NCBI GenBank assembly: GCA_013365365.1
Contig: JABVXU010000137.1
Coordinates: 1-64,000 of the forward strand
DNA length: 64,000 bases
Direction of reading: 5' to 3'
Source of the DNA: Cruorifilaria tuberocauda
Lineage: Eukaryota > Nematoda > Chromadorea > Rhabditida > Onchocercidae
Part shown: positions 26,101 to 56,600 of the stretch, one piece after another
How the letters are laid out: each line of letters starts with the position of its first letter
How positions within the stretch are numbered: the stretch's first letter is position 1
The notes under the pieces: model-generated
Told to the model about the DNA's origin: nothing
Databases searched by the model: none
The model's input: only the letters and a program-made list of their open reading frames with translations
Translations under genes and position numbers: made by a program

Positions 26101-27564
26101 ACTTTGCTGATAAAAATTACCGAAAACTTAGTGAAATGATATGATATGAAAAATGAATATAGCGTTATTTGCGCTATTATCTTTAAATATCGTCACTAAA
26201 TTTTCAATAACTTTTTAAACTTTCTTTTATAATAGAATTTTTCATTGTTACAATTAATGATTAAGCGTTCTTAATCACTTAATAATAAAATCTTTTCAGA
26301 TTATCGTTTTCAGACATACTTTATTACTGTCTAATACTGTAACTCTCTAATTAAGCTATCAGACTATTACTGTATAATCACTGTTATCAACATAACAGTG
26401 TTACGTAGCATAAATAAAAGTAAAGTAATTTATAATGATTTGTCACGAGAAAAAAACAATTAACAAAGTTGAATTTAAAATTTCTAAAGGAAATGTTTTT
26501 CTCTTATCAACAAAGTATTATCTGAAAATACTTTTGATTGAAATTTGACTTATTGATTCATTTCCGTTTTCTTTGTATAATAATAAAATGTTTTTGTGAA
26601 AAAAAAAACTAATCATTCGATGAAGTAACGTTCAAAATTTTGATAAAAAAAAATTATCTGATTATTATCATAGTATTTACTTACTTAAATTTCGTTGAAA
26701 GATAAAAGAAAATTTGCCAAAAAACAAAACTAAGAAAATAGAACGATGTTTTCATGAAAATTCAACAATTTAAATTTCTTCAATCAACTTTACACTTCTT
26801 TTCATGTCTTCCTGCTTTTTTCAATTTGACAAGAAAAAGTTCATCACTCATCAAAATGTATTTGAAGCATGCATGACTCAAGAAAAAAAAATTTTTTTTT
26901 ATGATAACATTTTTTTTTTTTCAAATATGCGTAAATTTTTATTTTACACTTTAACAATATCATTTCAACAATCTTTGTCTAATCTAAATTATAATTTAAC
27001 TTTAAATTACTACAAGTGATCTGTGTAATAGCAATGATTTATCAATGTTTATTTTTTAAATTGCATCAAATAAATCAAAATGAAATATACTACAAAAATA
27101 AGCAAGATAAGAGAAATGAATGAATATCAGTTGCTTTTACATTCAATGAACAATTAGTAAAAAATAATTTGAATATTCATGCAATTATAAAATTAGGATG
27201 AAAACGAAAAAGAAAAAAAACCTTTGAATGTGTAAGCTTCGATGAATGTTTGTGAAATTGCTGAACCTAAACAGCTTCCATCAAAGTTTTCGATAAAATA
27301 ACAATGCTTTCCGTATTTTGTTCAATCTATTATCTTAGACATCAAAGATTGAATTCTTTTTCAACTGTTAAACTTATCACTGCACCATTTTTTTTTTTTA
27401 AACAAATTATTTTTTCCGTTAAAGTATTTAATTACATTCGTTACTACGTAGTTACTTGTTACTTTACATCATTTAACAATTACTGCATTCATTATAATCT
27501 TATTTATTTTCAAAATACTTTATCATATTTTATCACCGCAATCAATTTGCGATACAGAGAAATG

Positions 27565-35200: not shown

Positions 35201-38200
35201 ATGACACATAGTCTCACATACCATAGTTCCTATGTTATTATTTTTTAAGGTATTTGGGAAATTAACAAATTTTGGATATCTTTTTATGATTGAATCTCGC
35301 AATCGATCCCACCAAATAACGACAAACAAATAATTTGTAATTTACCAAATATATATATATATATATATTTATTACAAAAAATAAAATTTTTAGCATAATT
35401 TAATTTCTAATTATCATTTTAATTTTTCATTTTTCTTCATTTTCTTTCTCTTCTTCTTTTTTTTTTTTTTCAATTTTTCTCTCAGGTTATGGTAATATTA
35501 CACCGAAAACTTTTGCCGGACGAATGTTCTGCATATTTTTTTCGGCATTTGGTGTACCATTAACATTACTTGCTATCGCAGATCTTGGCAAATTTATCGC
35601 TCAAATCATTTTCGCCTGTAATGACCGATTAAATGCACATATAAAGTTATTAAATTTTTCAAAATTTTATAAATACTTCCTGTTTTTTTCTTTTTCATAT
35701 CCTAGAAATTTCTATTTAAATTCTTTTTCTCAATCAAGAAATAAATAAATAGTTTTCTGATATGGAGGAAATTTAAAATGAAAAATCTAACCAATAAATT
35801 TTGCTATATTTTTAGAATTCATACTTAAACCTGTTTGTTATGTTAGCTAAAAAGCAATTCACTCGTATAACTATTCAATTATCTTCTCTTTTTTTTATTA
35901 TAGGAAATTATGGCAACGAAATTCTTTGCGAAATCGTTTTAGGATGATGATAGCCGATCGTAAATCGAATAAAATCCTGAATGATATGAATAATTTGAGA
36001 GTTAAATTATCACGAGCAGAAAATGGTAATAATGAATCAGGTCGACGAAATAACAATGATAAAGAGGTTCTTCTTTTTTTTTTTTTTTTTCTGAAATAAA
36101 TTTCTGATACTAGTATTCATTTTTATAAACAGGCAGAGATGAAAAGAAAAAAAAAATTTATAAAATTAAGATTAATGGAGCAGATGAAAACGAAGAGATA
36201 GGTGATAATAATGAACAACCAAATCGAACATTGATTCTTTTCATACTATTTATCATTTATGTTATCGGTGGATCATTACTACTTAGCAGCTATGAACCTG
36301 AAATGCCATTTTTTACCGTAAGTAATTAATAAAGGCTAATAAATTTTTTCATTTACTCAATATGAAAAAAGAAACTTTCAGCTATTTTTCAATAAAGCCT
36401 ATTTGATCATTCGTTTTTTTTGAATTACTATTTATTCCTTTCTTCGTCTTAAAAATATTGAAAGTTTAAAATCGATTGATTACAAAAAATTCATATGAAT
36501 AACTGCTAAAATTATTTTTAATTCACTTAATACTGTTAAATATGTGATAATTTTCAGGCCATATATTTCAACTTTATAACATTAACATCTATTGGACTTG
36601 GTGATATTGTCCCACAACGGTTTAATTTTAGTAATTTTAGGATTTGCAATCATTACTGTTATTTACTGATTTCAGAAAAGCATAAAAATATAAATTAATA
36701 TAAGAAATTTTATTCCTCATCTTTGACAAATCAATTACTTAATTTTCTTTTTGCAAATTAATTATTCAATTATTTCTTTTTTGATACAAATCAATGATTT
36801 AAAAAAATTTTAAAGATTTTTTTTTTGCAGAAGAACTTATATGGCAATAACGATTCTGTACATAATTGTTGGCTTAGCACTTACAACGATTGCTATTGAA
36901 ATAGCTGCGGATACATTGAAGCAATTACATTATTTCAGGCGACAAATTAAAAATGTTGGAAATATTGAAATTTGGTTTGGTGGCAAAAGGTTTTTTTTTT
37001 TTAAATCTTATTTTTAATAAATGTAATCATAGTAATTTAATATGCTAATTTTATTTATTCAATTAAATTTAGAGTTATTACTAGTGAGTAAATTTGTTCA
37101 CAGTTAAATGTAACTTTAATATTTTCGTACTTAATTATTTTTAATAAATGTAATCATAGTAATTTAATATGCTAATTTCATTCACTCAATTAAACGATGA
37201 AATTTAGAGTTATTACTAGTAAATAAATTTGTTCACAGTTAAATGTAACTTTAATATTTTCGTACTTAATTAATTGAAACAAGAGGAAATTTAAAGTAAA
37301 ATTCTTGTAAAAAGTTAGTTAAAAATTTCATTTCATACGATAAATTCTTAATATTTTTTATTTACTTTATTATTATTAAATTTACTTTGAAATTTTTAAT
37401 TATTTACTTTATTGTTACTGTTAAACTTGTACTAGTATTTAATGCAATATATTTTTCATCGGTTTTACTCTTGCATAACGGAAATAATTTTAAAGTTTAA
37501 CATAACTTTTCTCAATCTTTTCCCATTTTTAATTATATGTATGTATTCTACTGAAATTAAGGTTAAATTAAATTTGAAAAATCTTACAGATTATCTTACA
37601 GATTAACTGTTCGTCAAATAATCCGTAATTTATGTGATCAGTTCAATGTACCTGATACCGCATTATCTGACTTCAATATCGGTAATTTTGTGGAACAAGC
37701 AATTCAAGTTGAAGCTGGCGAACGACCTCCATTAAGAGTAGATTCTTGATATTTTCATTACTTGTTCATTCTTATACTTTTTTCAAATCTATCATCAATT
37801 TTTAGAATTTAACACCATGTCAAGAACCTGAAATTCCATCCGAACATGAACCGGAATCAGAGCATGTATCAGAATCTACACCCATACTATCGCAAGAGGA
37901 GGAACATGAGCCCACACCTGAACCTGAACCTGAACCGGAACCTGAACCTGAACCAGAAGTACCAACACCACCACGTGAACCAACACCAGTAATTGTAGAA
38001 TTAGAGCCTATACCAGATCCTGAACTGTATCCACTGAATTTATCGCAAGAAATGGAAAAAATTCCATATATACCTGAGATACCGGAACCGGAACCGGAAC
38101 CTGAACCGACACCTGAAATACCGGAACCAGAACCAGAACCTGAACCAACACCCGAGATACCGGAACCGGAACCGGAACCTGAACCGATACCCGAGATACC

Positions 38201-39151
38201 GGAACCTGAACCGACACCTTCGCCTGAATCAGTGCCAGAACTACCAGAACTATCTGAGGTTGAAGAAACAGAGGAAATAGAATCAGAACGAGAGATTCAA
38301 CCGGTACGTTAATCGTTTTATTGATAGGATACTGAATGTTATTTTGAAGTTTTTAGTTTCTTGCTAGTATAATAATAATTACTCTAATAATAATAATTAC
38401 ATTTGCAGGTAGAGCAGACTGTTCCGGAGCGTAAGTTTTAATTGAACTATTTTTTAATTAAATTAAACTTTTAGAATTTTTTAAATAAAAATAAATATTA
38501 CACCCTTAATGAAGAAAAAAATTAAATCACAGATTTGAATTTACAAAAAAAAGTTTAGAAATTTTAAAGTACTCAAACGTTAAATAAACTTTGCTTAAAT
38601 TTCTAAACAGCACACATTCATAACTCTGATTTGTAAAGCTTTTTTAGAAAGAGTTTTAATTAGATTATCATTAGTAAAGACAATATTTTGGAACTTTGGA
38701 TTAGATTAAAAAATGGTAAAAATTGAAGTTTGTGATCAATTCATTGAAGTTTACCCAGAGATTCATGCATCACGTGATAACGTCAAGTTACCTTACGCAT
38801 CACCTATCTATCTGCTTTTCATGTTATTTAGTTTGGATAAGAAATAGTGTTTGTATGTTAGCTAAAATTAATATTATTTTAAATTGACAAAATTCAATCA
38901 CTGAAATTTCAGCATCAGCAGATATAGGAGCACGGCGAAAAGGTTACAGTGAGGAAGCCTGGAAGCGTTATCTGGAATATAAGAATGTAAGTTATCTATT
39001 CATATAGATACACGATATATATATGTAATATTAATATATATTTCAGGAATGGAATAAGTTTCAGCGCCTTTCACGTACCCTTGCACGTAAACCACGTCCG
39101 AAGGGTGCAGGAAAAAAAACGATTACAAAGTCTCCGGATGATCCAAAATAA
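32297..39151 (+). CDS. Two-pore-domain potassium channel (TWK family), copy B, with Pro-Glu repeat tail; 5' end unsure
   Basis: K2P leak potassium channel. Exons: 32297-32387, 33472-33559, 34068-34141, 34570-34726, 34966-35052, 35486-35645, 35904-36025, 36133-36317, 36558-36619, 36831-36989, 37602-37737, 37806-38303, 38409-38430, 38913-38986, 39047-39151. The frame is kept throughout, giving 672 residues. The first listed exon needs 2 nt from an earlier exon unless it is trans-spliced and starts at the Met codon 32352. M1 [20 protein letters not shown]; pore 1 TTIGYGN split by an intron; M3 [18 protein letters not shown]; pore 2 TSIGLGD; M4 [20 protein letters not shown]. The tail carries 166 residues of acidic Pro-Glu repeats and ends in a basic segment ([16 protein letters not shown]). 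Compared with copy A it has an extra intron between M3 and pore 2. AATAAA overlaps the stop codon (39147-39152). Confidence 0.9.
37011..37272. repeat. Imperfect tandem duplication of a ~127-bp unit
   Basis: The sequence from 37011 (TTTTTAATAAATGTAATCAT) recurs from 37138, with scattered differences and a short insertion (ACGATGA) in the second copy. It sits inside the intron before the 37602 exon of K2P copy B. Confidence 0.85.
37919..38222 (+). repeat. Coding Pro-Glu repeats of K2P copy B
   Basis: CCN-GAA alternation forms a first block (about 37919-37960). A set of units of the type [13 protein letters not shown] follows at about 38077-38222, three near-complete and one short. The proline third positions vary (CCG, CCA, CCT) between units, so the repeat is not a fresh slippage product along its whole length. 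The reverse strand is also open here, but that is a by-product of the repeat. Confidence 0.85.
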
Positions 39152-40899: not shown

Positions 40900-43694
40900 T
40901 TAGCGTTTCTTGCAACAATGCGATCCGTTATCACATGGAGTATTACCATCTGGACAGTAACATTGAATCATTCCTGTCTGTTGACATTGTTTTAACATTT
41001 GTTGTTGTTGTGGTGATAATGATGATGCTGATAACTGCTGCTGATAAGGATGATACTGATGATGACCACAATTCTGTTGACAAATTGTTTGACAAGCTGA
41101 TTGACATTGTGAGTCAATGATAGGATTAATACCGCATTGTTGTAAGCAAGTTTGCTGACATTGTGGAATACATTGTGTTGATTCCAGCATTGCTGCATTA
41201 AGATTTACTCGAATTACCTGAAAATAAAATAAACAAAAAATAAAATTAAAATGAAATTTCTAATGGATTAAAAGTTAATAATTGAAATTACTGAAATAAT
41301 TCATATAATTTGATACTATGTGTTATGCAAATGATAATTATGTTGTTATCACTTTCGAAAATAATTAATAAATGCACAATTATTCATACATTTATAGCTC
41401 TCACTAGTGATGCATATTATAATTAAACTTAAAATAAAGAATTACTTTGAGAAAGAAATGAAAAAGTATATATACTTTATAATAATATTGAAGTTTTTCA
41501 AGTATTGATAGCTTTAAAAGAATTACAATTTTGAATTAAATAGTAAAATACAATCAATAAATATTTACACAATTATGTCAACTTAAAAAATAGTCATTTT
41601 TATTTATTTTAACTGAATAATTGCAACTCTCTAATCTATTCAGTAAACATTTATTGATAATCATGATTTAATGATTATTTTTACTCGACTACAAAATTAT
41701 TTGTTTCAAGAAAAAATACGATAAAGTTAATGCTACCAAAATTTATCAAATTTTTTCAATCGTTTAGAAAATTAATTAATTGATTGGAATATTAATTAAT
41801 TAGTCGAGAAAAAAAAATCTCATAAATATTACGCTTATTTCCATGTTTAATCAAGTTATCGATAGTTTGAATTGTTATTATTGGATTAATGATTATTTCA
41901 ACTGATTAATAATTTCAATTTCAGTGCGAAATTAATTTATCATTGGAAAAATCAGTTTGCCATGATAGTAGTAATTATCAAATATTTCGTTTATTTCCCT
42001 AATTGATTAAAATATTTTTGAAGTAAACACTAATAGATAACTTTTTTATCAGTGGTTTTTATCATAACTGTCAAAAATGGTATTCCTCTCATTGTTATTT
42101 TTAGTTACAGCTGATAAACAAATTAATCATCGAGAAAATTCAATATGAGTAATTTCGGTGATAAAAATTTACTTTTATCTTTTAGTTTAAAAAAGAATTT
42201 TTTTTTTAGAAACAGTATATTACGAATTTTCATACCTCCTTGTTTACAATAACTTTTAATCACTTACTTTTTGTTTTTTAGAAAATTTTGATATCATGAA
42301 TAATATAATATTGAGAACATTAGTTGTTTCAATTATTAGAAAAATATTGATTTAATTAGATTTAAATTATTATATAATTTTTTTTTTACTTTTTCTTAGC
42401 TTATTTTTTTACTTCTTATTTTACTTATTAGCAATTAATTTATCTAATAACTTAAATAACTTCGAAATTTATTATCTTCGAATTCATTTCAATCTGAGAT
42501 GAAATACTAAAAAACGAGTGACAAAAATTTGAACCTGCGGTTGAAACATCTGCTTGGGTTGTTGAACAACGGGTACTGGTTGTTGATAAGGATGACAAAA
42601 TTGTTGACAATTTTGATTGCATGGATTAGAACAATGGGTAGTTTGCAATCCACAAGATTGTTTACAATTATCAAAACATTTTGCTAAGCAATATTGCGAT
42701 TGAATTGGATATGTATTAAAGGATGGATAAGAGTATGAATTTGATGAAATGAACGGATTCAATTGTGAATTTATCGGTGAGAAAAGTTGTGATTCTGGTG
42801 ACATGATGCAAATATCGGAACATTGCTGCTTGCATTGTGATTGACATCGTTGTGGTTGAATGATATTATTTAGTTGTTGTTGATTGCAAAATTGTTGACA
42901 ATTTTGTTGACAATACGGTATGCATTGTTGTTGTTGTTGTTGTTGTTGTTGAATGGTGGTGGAAAATGATGATTGCAAATGCATGCTAGGTAAACAAGCT
43001 TGCTGACATTGTTGCATGCATCCACACTGTAGCATATTACCATCCGAAAATGGCTGATATGTGCTACAAAATTGTCCACAAGCAATTAAACAGGTAAGAC
43101 ATTGTTCCGTAAATGGTAGTAATTGTTGATAAGAATGAGATGGATAGGAGGGATATGATTGTTGCATTGGATATATAGTTGGATTCCAATATGCTAAATT
43201 ACCAGGTTGCTGTTGCTGTTGCTGTTGCAAACTGCATGATTGCATGCATGCTTCAAGACATGCATTATCACAATAGATTTGTGACATATATGGATTACAT
43301 TGCATATTGCAAGATTGCTGACAACCTGTTCGACATCGTTGTCCAATGCTATCATGTAAATTACATCCGCAATAATTTGATTGCTGCAATTGTTGTTGCA
43401 CCTGTGGACATGAACATGACATGGAAAGTGTGGATGATTTCGGGATGCAAACACATGATTCACCTGTCCATGATTGCATTTGTTCTAATTGATTACAACG
43501 GCATGTTTGACGTCGCATGCGTTTCATATATTCAGCATATACCTTTAATTTATTCCATATTATTATGAAATAAAATTCAAACTTAATAACATTTATCATT
43601 AAGTTGGAAAATATAAATTAAGATATAAGCTTACATTATTTATTCCAATCATTGTAATGAAAGCAATAAGCAACTTAAATTGTAAAACATCCAT
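40900..43694 (-). CDS. Secreted Cys/Gln-rich protein with Cx3Cx3Cx3C repeats (abu/pqn-like)
   Basis: Three exons: 43635-43694, 42535-43542, 40900-41217, all joined in phase 0, giving 461 residues. Exon 1 plus the next few codons form a signal peptide (MDVLQFKLLIAFITMIGINN then VYA, a fair cleavage site), followed by a dibasic RMRR site. The mature part has a Cys-rich head (CRCNQLEQ..., CSCPQ, CGC) and about ten four-Cys units such as CIPYCQQNCQQFC, CQSQCKQQCSDIC and CNQNCQQFC. Between them lie Gln, Pro and Tyr-rich linkers and a nine-Gln run (42925-42951). This is the layout of nematode C_tripleX-repeat proteins of the abu/pqn group, which in C. elegans are linked to the pharyngeal cuticle and other apical matrix. 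Cross-linked extracellular matrix is the likely role (inference). The C-terminus CPDGNTPCDNGSHCCKKR resembles a small disulphide knot. Confidence 0.8.
41937..42180. promoter_or_regulatory. Cluster of GATA-type sites in intron 2 of the Cys-rich gene
   Basis: WGATAA or its complement occurs at 42035, 42046, 42059, 42112, 42159 and 42175, six times in about 146 bp, with two more TTATCA words between 41937 and 41985. At this base composition about one per 300 bp is expected, so the density is high. GATA factors drive gut and epidermal genes in nematodes; a link to this gene is inferred. Confidence 0.35.
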
Positions 43695-53685: not shown

Positions 53686-56600
53686 ATGTCAAGTAGTGGA
53701 CCATTCGGTACTGCTGTTGAAGCAAAAAGATTGGTAGAAAATTTATTATCGGATTTGAGAACACTTTCGACAGAGGCTAGGAAAAAGCATTCACAGGTTA
53801 AGGAGGTACGATTTTACTGCAAATTATTATAATACATGGTAAATCAGTCTTATTATTGGCATTATTTTGGACTTGAATATTAATAAAGTATACTTTTTTT
53901 TCTTAGTATTCGAGTTCAAAATGATGCCAATAATACTGAAATATACTCAAATCATGAATTTCAGAATCATCAGGTATTTCACAAATAACAAGGTTTTTAA
54001 ATTTTCATTTAATGTGTTACATTTCTATTTTCGTAATATTTTACAGTCGGCTGAATCAGGTCTCGTGAAGATAAAGAATATTAGTGCAGCGTCCAATGAA
54101 CAAAATTTGTTGACAAACATACGTTGTGCTAGTGCCGAATTATTACAACCGCTTATTTTGGGTTGTTCAAGTAAAAATGCTCGTCTTGTTCAGGTGTCCT
54201 TACAGGCCATTCAAAAGATGGTACAGCATCGAGTTATTGAATCCGTACGTTCTCGTTTCATGTGCTTTTTGGCTTTTATTTAATTAAAATGGGTTTAATT
54301 TGAGTAGTTCTTCCGGTACCTTTTTTTCACTACCTCATGTTTTTAATTTTCATTTCAATCAGTGGTTGAAGCGTAATTCAATTTGTTATTGAGAATTGCA
54401 GTTACCAATGGAACTAGAGTTTTTTGAGGGATTAAAATTTGAAAATTTTGTGAGATTGTTACTAAAATGTAAGGAAAGCTATATTGAAGTATTTATTGCA
54501 GGCTTCTGCTCGCATAATTGTAAATGAACTATGGCATTTAATGGAAGCGGAATGCGAAGAATTACGGGTCTTGCAAACATTAACACCTCTTGTCAGTACT
54601 GAATTACTGGTCACTGGGCAGTGGCTTGCAAAGGTGAAATTCATTGTTTTGTTCATATGCAATATTATTTTGCAATTTTGATGCGAATTATCGTCTTATT
54701 ACGTCTTATTACTTGTTTTTTTTTCCAGTGCTTAGTGATGTGTTTTCGTTTAAATTTTGCAAAGGATCCAATTGTAATAAACACAGCGTCAGCAACTGTG
54801 CGACAAATGGTGAACTGTGTTTATGAACGAGTCATCCAGGTACTTTCATTTCAAAATATTTTTTTTATTTAATGGGTTAAAAAATGCTCCACATGTTGAA
54901 AAATGATTTACGAAAATCTCGGATTATATATTTCCAACCACTAATTTTTAAAGGAAGATGGTTTGAAAGGTTGTGAAATGCCAATCGTTCATCAAACTGT
55001 ACGAGTACATGCCAAAGCTCCACCACCGACACTAAGGCCATGCGCTTTGGATGGTTACATGTTGTTTCATGTAAACTTAATTTTTTCCGTCTATTATTTG
55101 AAAAACTTCGGAGCTAATAGGATATCACCAAAATATCACATTTTTTGTTTCCTGATTTCTTTTATCTTCTTTATATTTTCTTCTATCGCTATTTTTTTCT
55201 ATTTTTTTCCTTTTATTCATTTTTAGATTATATAGCAGTTGTCATATATAGATATTTGCTGGACTATATAAGTAGTGCTAAACTCCATCCATTTCCAGAT
55301 GTTGAGTATCTTTGCCATCATAATTAGGATCCTCTTAATCTCTCATCGATAGAAATGATTTGTATACTTCCTTTTTCAGGATCTTTGTCTGCTTATCAAT
55401 TCTGAATCACCTCTCTGGTTGACTGGCATTCAGGAAATGACGCGTACATTAGGTTTAGAATTGTTAGAATCAGTGCTTTCTTCCTATCCATCAGTATTTA
55501 TCAAGGTTCTTCAGTTATTCTATATTCTATATTACTATTCCATTTATTGTAGGACCTGATTGTTGTTTTATTATGGATTGAATTTTTTGAATATTTGAAG
55601 TAAATCGAACCGACTGTCCTAATTTGGATAACTTTTAGTATTTCTTTTGTCTTTCAAATAACTTGTTGCTTTTGCAGCATTCCGAATTTGCTCAGTTGTT
55701 GAAAGATCAAGTATGTCCTCTAATCATTAAACTGTTCGCACCGAACCATAAACAGATGCAGGTAAGCCTTCAGCTTTAACTGATCAGATTTCGTTCGTAG
55801 TAAATTAAGACTGTTTAGTCCGCAAATTTATCCCTTATGAAATGTGAATTTATTTGATTTAGATTACTTCGCAACATCCGTGTTCATCAAGTATACACGT
55901 ACCAATAGATTCCATTTCTTTGCAAATGCCTTGTTCACCTGAACGTGTATATTTTCCAATTTCAATGCGGCTTTTACGTCTTGTTGTAATTTTGATTACG
56001 CTTTATTACAACTTATTGGTTTGTTTATGATATTTTTATAACCTTTATTTGGTTGAAATTAATTTGTTGGTTTCGGACAAATTTATTTGCAGATTATGAT
56101 CGGAAGTGAAAGAAGAGACTTCATGAAGAAGGACTGTATAAGGATTTAATGTATTATGGGAATTTTATTATGCGCGGATTAATTTGGTAGTTTCAGGTGA
56201 CAGAATGTGAAATCTTTTTGGCATTGCTCGTAAAGTTTCTGGAATCCGATAAGCTGGGATGGCAACGTGCTATTGCTCTTGAAGTTTTGCACAAGATTGT
56301 TGTTTTACCCGAACTTTTAATGTATATTATTATCGTTGATCCTGTAATCCATCTTTCTCTTATCAGTAGTTATTGGTGTTAATCGCCACAACTGTCATTT
56401 GCTGTCAGTTAATTTAATTTAGTTGGTTCTGTGAAAATTATGATGCAAGATCAAATGCCACGAAAGCGATTAATTCAATTGTATCTGGCTTGGCCGCATA
56501 CGTACAACTGTCATTTTTGCGTCCCACTGTGTCAGAAACTAGTAAGTTTATTAAAATTTTATGAGGTTTTAATTTTAATGAGCTAGGAGTGGAATGGTGC

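Follow-up and report, generated by a model that had tools for sequence, protein, structure and literature searches.

The window, that is, the whole 64,000-nt stretch of DNA analysed here, encodes on its + strand the start of a mon-2 orthologue, as indicated by the Pfam DCB domain and by related proteins. Exon 1 (53686-53805) opens with ATG, comprises 40 codons and ends in QVKE, and the proteins of Brugia timori and Litomosoides sigmodontis start alike; these are also the closest named proteins, both of them partial (94% over 47% of the query and 89% over 45%, respectively). Intron 1 (53806-54046, 241 nt) runs from a GT at 53806 to an AG at 54046, a splice implied by the intron-less proteins P0004 and P0005, and leads into the start of exon 2 (54047-54250, the end being approximate), where the DCB domain lies. 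The hairpin that is the subject of this analysis sits on the sense strand of this intron, which is where the sequence-only reading of the window had placed it. Exon 2 opens with Ser (TCG, 54047-54049), a position at which all seven other covering sequences (P0002-P0008) have Ala. A pattern search for mon-2 relatives in IMG/VR matched two stretches, neither of them a relative. Elsewhere in the window there are a long ORF rich in Glu-Pro repeats (37806-38312, + strand) and a 377-aa ORF rich in Cys and Gln (42484-43617, - strand), while assembly contig C419 carries a Wolbachia-type cox1 whose protein shows, among the 80 matches listed of 593, 89% identity both to its counterpart in the Litomosoides brasiliensis symbiont and to a MAG, which is consistent with a filarial nematode.

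The hairpin itself is real. Its 5' arm (53851-53883) and 3' arm (53903-53935) pair on the + strand in an unbroken 33-bp stem around a 19-nt loop (53884-53902), made of 29 Watson-Crick and four G-U pairs (53863/53923, 53870/53916, 53874/53912 and 53880/53906). The sequence-only reading had described an unbroken stem with four G-U wobbles, all of which we located, and had given it 32 bp and a loop of 22 nt, sizes that are corrected here by one base pair and three nucleotides. The loop contains a 12-nt palindrome, AAAGTATACTTT (53885-53896), plus a T run. In the predicted fold, 4 further pairs form within the loop beyond one mismatch, and outside the stem, beyond 3 bulged nucleotides on the 5' side, lies a short helix in which TCAGT (53844-53850 including the bulge) pairs with ACTGA at 53935-53939. 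When 53820-53960 was folded as RNA, a check of the kind that had been proposed, the + strand gave -46.9 kcal/mol (z -9.0) and the - strand -31.1 kcal/mol (z -5.05), with 0 of 200 shuffles as good in either case; the hairpin folds more poorly on the - strand because the four G-U pairs turn into A-C there. Precursors of miRNAs are expected to form a hairpin in which ~16 or more bases of the mature region are paired, and the present stem offers 33 consecutive pairs.

Such a stem is uncommon in this genome. Among the 36 inverted repeats reported for the window with arms no more than 150 apart, it ranks first in length. It also exceeds every other stem in 247 kb, consisting of the window plus 183,119 bases sampled from 25 loci of the same genome (2,500 of the bases being N), when G-U and A-C pairing and loops of up to 80 nt were permitted in the scan. 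The same scan returned 13 non-overlapping stems of at least 20 bp, with a repetitive runner-up of 27 bp and a next non-repetitive stem of 24 bp. A weaker hairpin of the window (26112-26215, - strand) has a 23-bp stem with 4 G-U pairs and a 58-nt loop. A DNA search of the 71.7-Mb assembly, in which very common words were skipped, revealed no second copy of the hairpin, and a 27-nt core pattern, searched on both strands of the assembly with up to 3 mismatches, matched only the two arms. We rejected on these grounds the candidate origin from a transposable element, for which several related copies would be expected: the inverted-repeat form does resemble the remnant of a palindromic element (MITE or foldback element), but neither search found another copy and in the relative discussed below the 5' arm belongs to the intron as native sequence, and we regard this origin as very improbable. 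Hardly any more probable is a hairpin-siRNA (hpRNA) aimed at another gene; a long, nearly perfect duplex is what such an RNA would need, but the assembly, searched on both strands with up to 3 mismatches, contains no other site for the 27-nt core, i.e., no near-perfect complement elsewhere in the genome at that threshold.

The evidence on how the hairpin arose comes mainly from the orthologous intron of P0002, a 193-aa protein prediction that includes parts of the mon-2 exons and reads from exon 1 through intron 1 into exon 2. We compared this intron as degenerate DNA, back-translated from the protein, and the comparison accordingly represents one presumed relative at the protein level. The P0002 intron matches that of the window on both sides of the hairpin (e.g., 44.2 bits for 53937-54017, reached by 0 of 300 shuffles, whose maximum was 21.2), yet it is ~50 nt shorter and contains the 5' arm alone, with neither the loop nor the 3' arm. 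The complement of the 3' arm also matches this lone arm (23.1 bits; 0 of 300 shuffles, maximum 21.6). To the same effect, when 612 cuts of 44, 47, 50 or 53 nt were made in the window intron and scored against P0002, the best score was 66.7 vs. 33.4 for the uncut intron, shared by 14 cuts (53881-53930 to 53891-53940), all of which take most of the loop and the 3' arm; the next score was 66.5 (53899-53948), and cuts from 53851, which remove the 5' arm instead, reached at most 48.6. The putative ~50-nt insert is placed here at 53891-53940, one of the 14 equal-score placements (starts 53881-53891). The comparison with related nematodes that the sequence-only reading had called for, as carried out on the P0002 protein, recovered the 5' arm and failed to recover the 3' arm and loop. 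The P0002 cluster lists two sequences in two contigs, one of which was compared here; the listing of two speaks against a one-off assembly error. As for other relatives, P0010 aligns equally with or without the loop and 3' arm (1.5 full vs. 0.9 cut), the P0009 sequence ends ahead of the loop, and the end of the P0003 intron gave no convincing match to the hairpin (at most 15.1 bits).

Of the 32 informative stem columns, 9 separate P0002 from the 5' arm and 7 separate it from the complement of the 3' arm, all 7 being shared between the two comparisons; two of the shared columns, 53882 and 53883, sit at the junction, where the alignment may not be true, and leaving them out reduces the second figure to 5 of 30. 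The two differences private to the 5' arm are the G-U sites 53863 and 53870, the only two of the four that P0002 resolves, and at both P0002 agrees with the 3' arm. Between the two arms there are differences at 4 of 33 positions, and between the flank and P0002 at 11 of 68, which gives only a lean towards arms younger than the split from P0002. The repeat extends somewhat beyond the stem, with 36 matches, 5 differences and one 3-nt gap between 53844-53887 and the complement of 53899-53939. In this local alignment the two halves were not joined across the central palindrome, which was found separately; a 12-nt palindrome is held by 67 of 9141 19-nt stretches of the window and by 36 of 20,000 shuffled loops. 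If the T run that follows the palindrome is a later expansion, as we assume, the repeat once reached its centre.

The hairpin has the look of nearby DNA copied backwards fairly recently, and the simplest history appears to be one in which the 5' arm served as template for the 3' arm once the lineage had split from that of P0002; P0002, as one relative at the protein level, has only the presumed source copy at the orthologous site. We lean, at slightly better than even confidence, towards a single-copy, lineage-restricted inverted duplication in mon-2 intron 1, of template-switch/fold-back type, as opposed to a conserved miRNA. The direction of the change would be a gain here, with a loss in P0002 the less likely course. 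A loss is what the alternative of an older hairpin involves, in which selection on RNA structure (i.e., a miRNA, splicing or editing element) maintained the stem and the loop and 3' arm were deleted in the P0002 lineage. Hairpins are prone to deletion, pairing has been preserved here through G-U changes, and the differences that both arms show from P0002 could all postdate the loss and have occurred in P0002. However, wherever such a both-arm change arose in the window lineage instead, gene conversion or a second, matching change would be required, and P0010 lends no clear support; we consider the older hairpin rather unlikely.

We infer the duplication mechanism (template switch or fold-back), and every step at the RNA level, as follows. 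In the most likely course of events, the strand being synthesised in DNA replication changed template or folded back near 53890/53891 and would then have copied ~45 nt of the sequence before that point backwards, for a gain of ~50 nt. The T run and the 3-nt gap would have appeared later, while four transitions built up in the arms; at the two of the four G-U sites that P0002 resolves, the change was probably in the 5' arm. On transcription of mon-2, the intron would fold into a stem-loop of pri-miRNA size, which most likely is removed by splicing and broken down; a fraction may be cut by Drosha/Dicer or edited by ADAR. Under the duplication hypothesis, the hairpin would be raw material, whether or not a new miRNA has come of it.

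Whether selection has since acted on the RNA form can be assessed from the arm differences, all four of which keep pairing on the sense (transcribed) strand only. The sequence-only reading had taken pairing kept through G-U as what selection on RNA structure gives; the G-U pattern is confirmed (4 of 4), and the argument from it is modest. In 100,000 simulations per transition fraction, in which an initially perfect 33-bp hairpin received four random changes, + strand pairing survived all four with a chance of 0.07% at a transition fraction of 0.33, 0.4% at 0.5, 1.3% at 0.67, 2.6% at 0.8 and 6.3% at 1.0 (transitions only), i.e., 0.4% to 6.3% over the range from 0.5 to 1.0, these values being doubled if either strand is allowed; the stem was picked for being unbroken, and the statistic would be weaker with the inner mismatch (53884/53902) and the 3-nt gap counted in. 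The reading's own caveat, that one-way C-to-T decay could mimic such a pattern, is not the whole story, since 53870 appears to be an A-to-G change in the 5' arm, given that P0002 and the 3' arm agree there, and C-to-T decay alone is thus insufficient. The all-G-U pattern mildly favours selection on RNA, as a hint and not as proof, and with four of four differences keeping sense-strand pairing, a newborn miRNA under weak selection is a possible reading.

It is in this light that the pre-miRNA-like character claimed by the sequence-only reading should be seen: structure, strand, host gene and pri-miRNA size all agree with it. The comparison with P0002, which lacks the 3' arm and loop and differs at 9 of 32 columns in the 5' arm, is unlike what a conserved miRNA would show. 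That is, neither hairpin nor mature-sequence conservation was found in this one relative, where conservation of the 5' arm does not exceed that of the flank (11 of 68). The hairpin would not matter as a conserved regulatory RNA, because the evidence is against that reading. A young, lineage-specific intronic miRNA, with Drosha and Dicer cutting the sense-strand hairpin and one arm guiding Argonaute, is compatible with a duplication origin and, in our view, a tentative possibility that falls well short of even. The sense-strand location, the 33-bp stem with its small loop and the retained pairing on the sense strand fit it, and over 105 nt the hairpin reaches -0.43 kcal/mol/nt, somewhat stabler than the stretches around let-7 (108 nt, -0.40) and mir-2 (101 nt, -0.38) that served as yardsticks in the same genome. 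According to the excerpted text of PMC3282659, moreover, 42 of 104 unique mature miRNAs of Brugia are conserved elsewhere, the remainder being apparently novel, and some filarial miRNAs are intronic; filarial worms thus have many miRNAs without known relatives, and non-conservation is compatible with a young miRNA.

On the other side, the missing 3' arm of P0002 and the unremarkable conservation of the 5' arm argue against a young miRNA, and the stem is without the mismatches and bulges of let-7 and mir-2. In addition, an Rfam scan of the window returned nothing at gathering score, and a search of the main texts of papers found none containing six arm words of 16-18 nt or six 12-mers in U form; the six 12-mers in T form matched 17 papers, none of them on nematodes as judged by title. 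The hairpin therefore matched no known miRNA family in Rfam at gathering score or in paper text. A miRNA gene is recognised by two stacks of 20-26 nt reads with 2-nt 3' overhangs and uniform 5' ends. From the DNA sequence, we see a modest chance that the hairpin is a newborn miRNA; its shape is one that could give rise to a new microRNA. The fuller version, a microRNA near birth, formed by one-step inverted duplication, with the single-arm state kept in a relative, and since selected on its RNA form, we deem unlikely, at about the level given above to the older hairpin. If the gain is true, the locus would show a nematode-intron hairpin both before and after its one-step birth, this birth would be dated after the split from P0002's species, and the locus would allow a clear-cut check on whether hairpins of this sort turn into miRNAs or remain inert.

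Compared to known systems, the let-7 and mir-2 precursors of the same genome are stable hairpins, as is the mon-2 intron hairpin, but they have interior mismatches or bulges and match Rfam families (56.2 and 63.8 bits, respectively), neither of which applies to the latter. With the lineage-specific filarial miRNAs, as far as the excerpted text of PMC3282659 describes them, it shares a suitable size, the lack of known relatives and, for some, an intronic location, whereas those miRNAs rest mostly on sequenced reads and the present hairpin is known from DNA alone and has an unusually perfect stem. The mon-2 intron hairpin is real and uncommon, and it is of a known kind, best read as a further case of the stem-loops produced by template switching or fold-back, the former being a described source of miRNA stems in the sections of PMC8794818 drawn on here. 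It differs from human MIR633 as presented there (section 5) in lying in a nematode intron, in having its presumed polarity rest on one relative at the protein level and, again, in being known from DNA. Like MIR633, it is a near-perfect stem that would have arisen as a reverse-complement copy of nearby sequence and that is absent from an outgroup, and, as the same source describes for stem-loops of that type, its mismatches would have arisen later.
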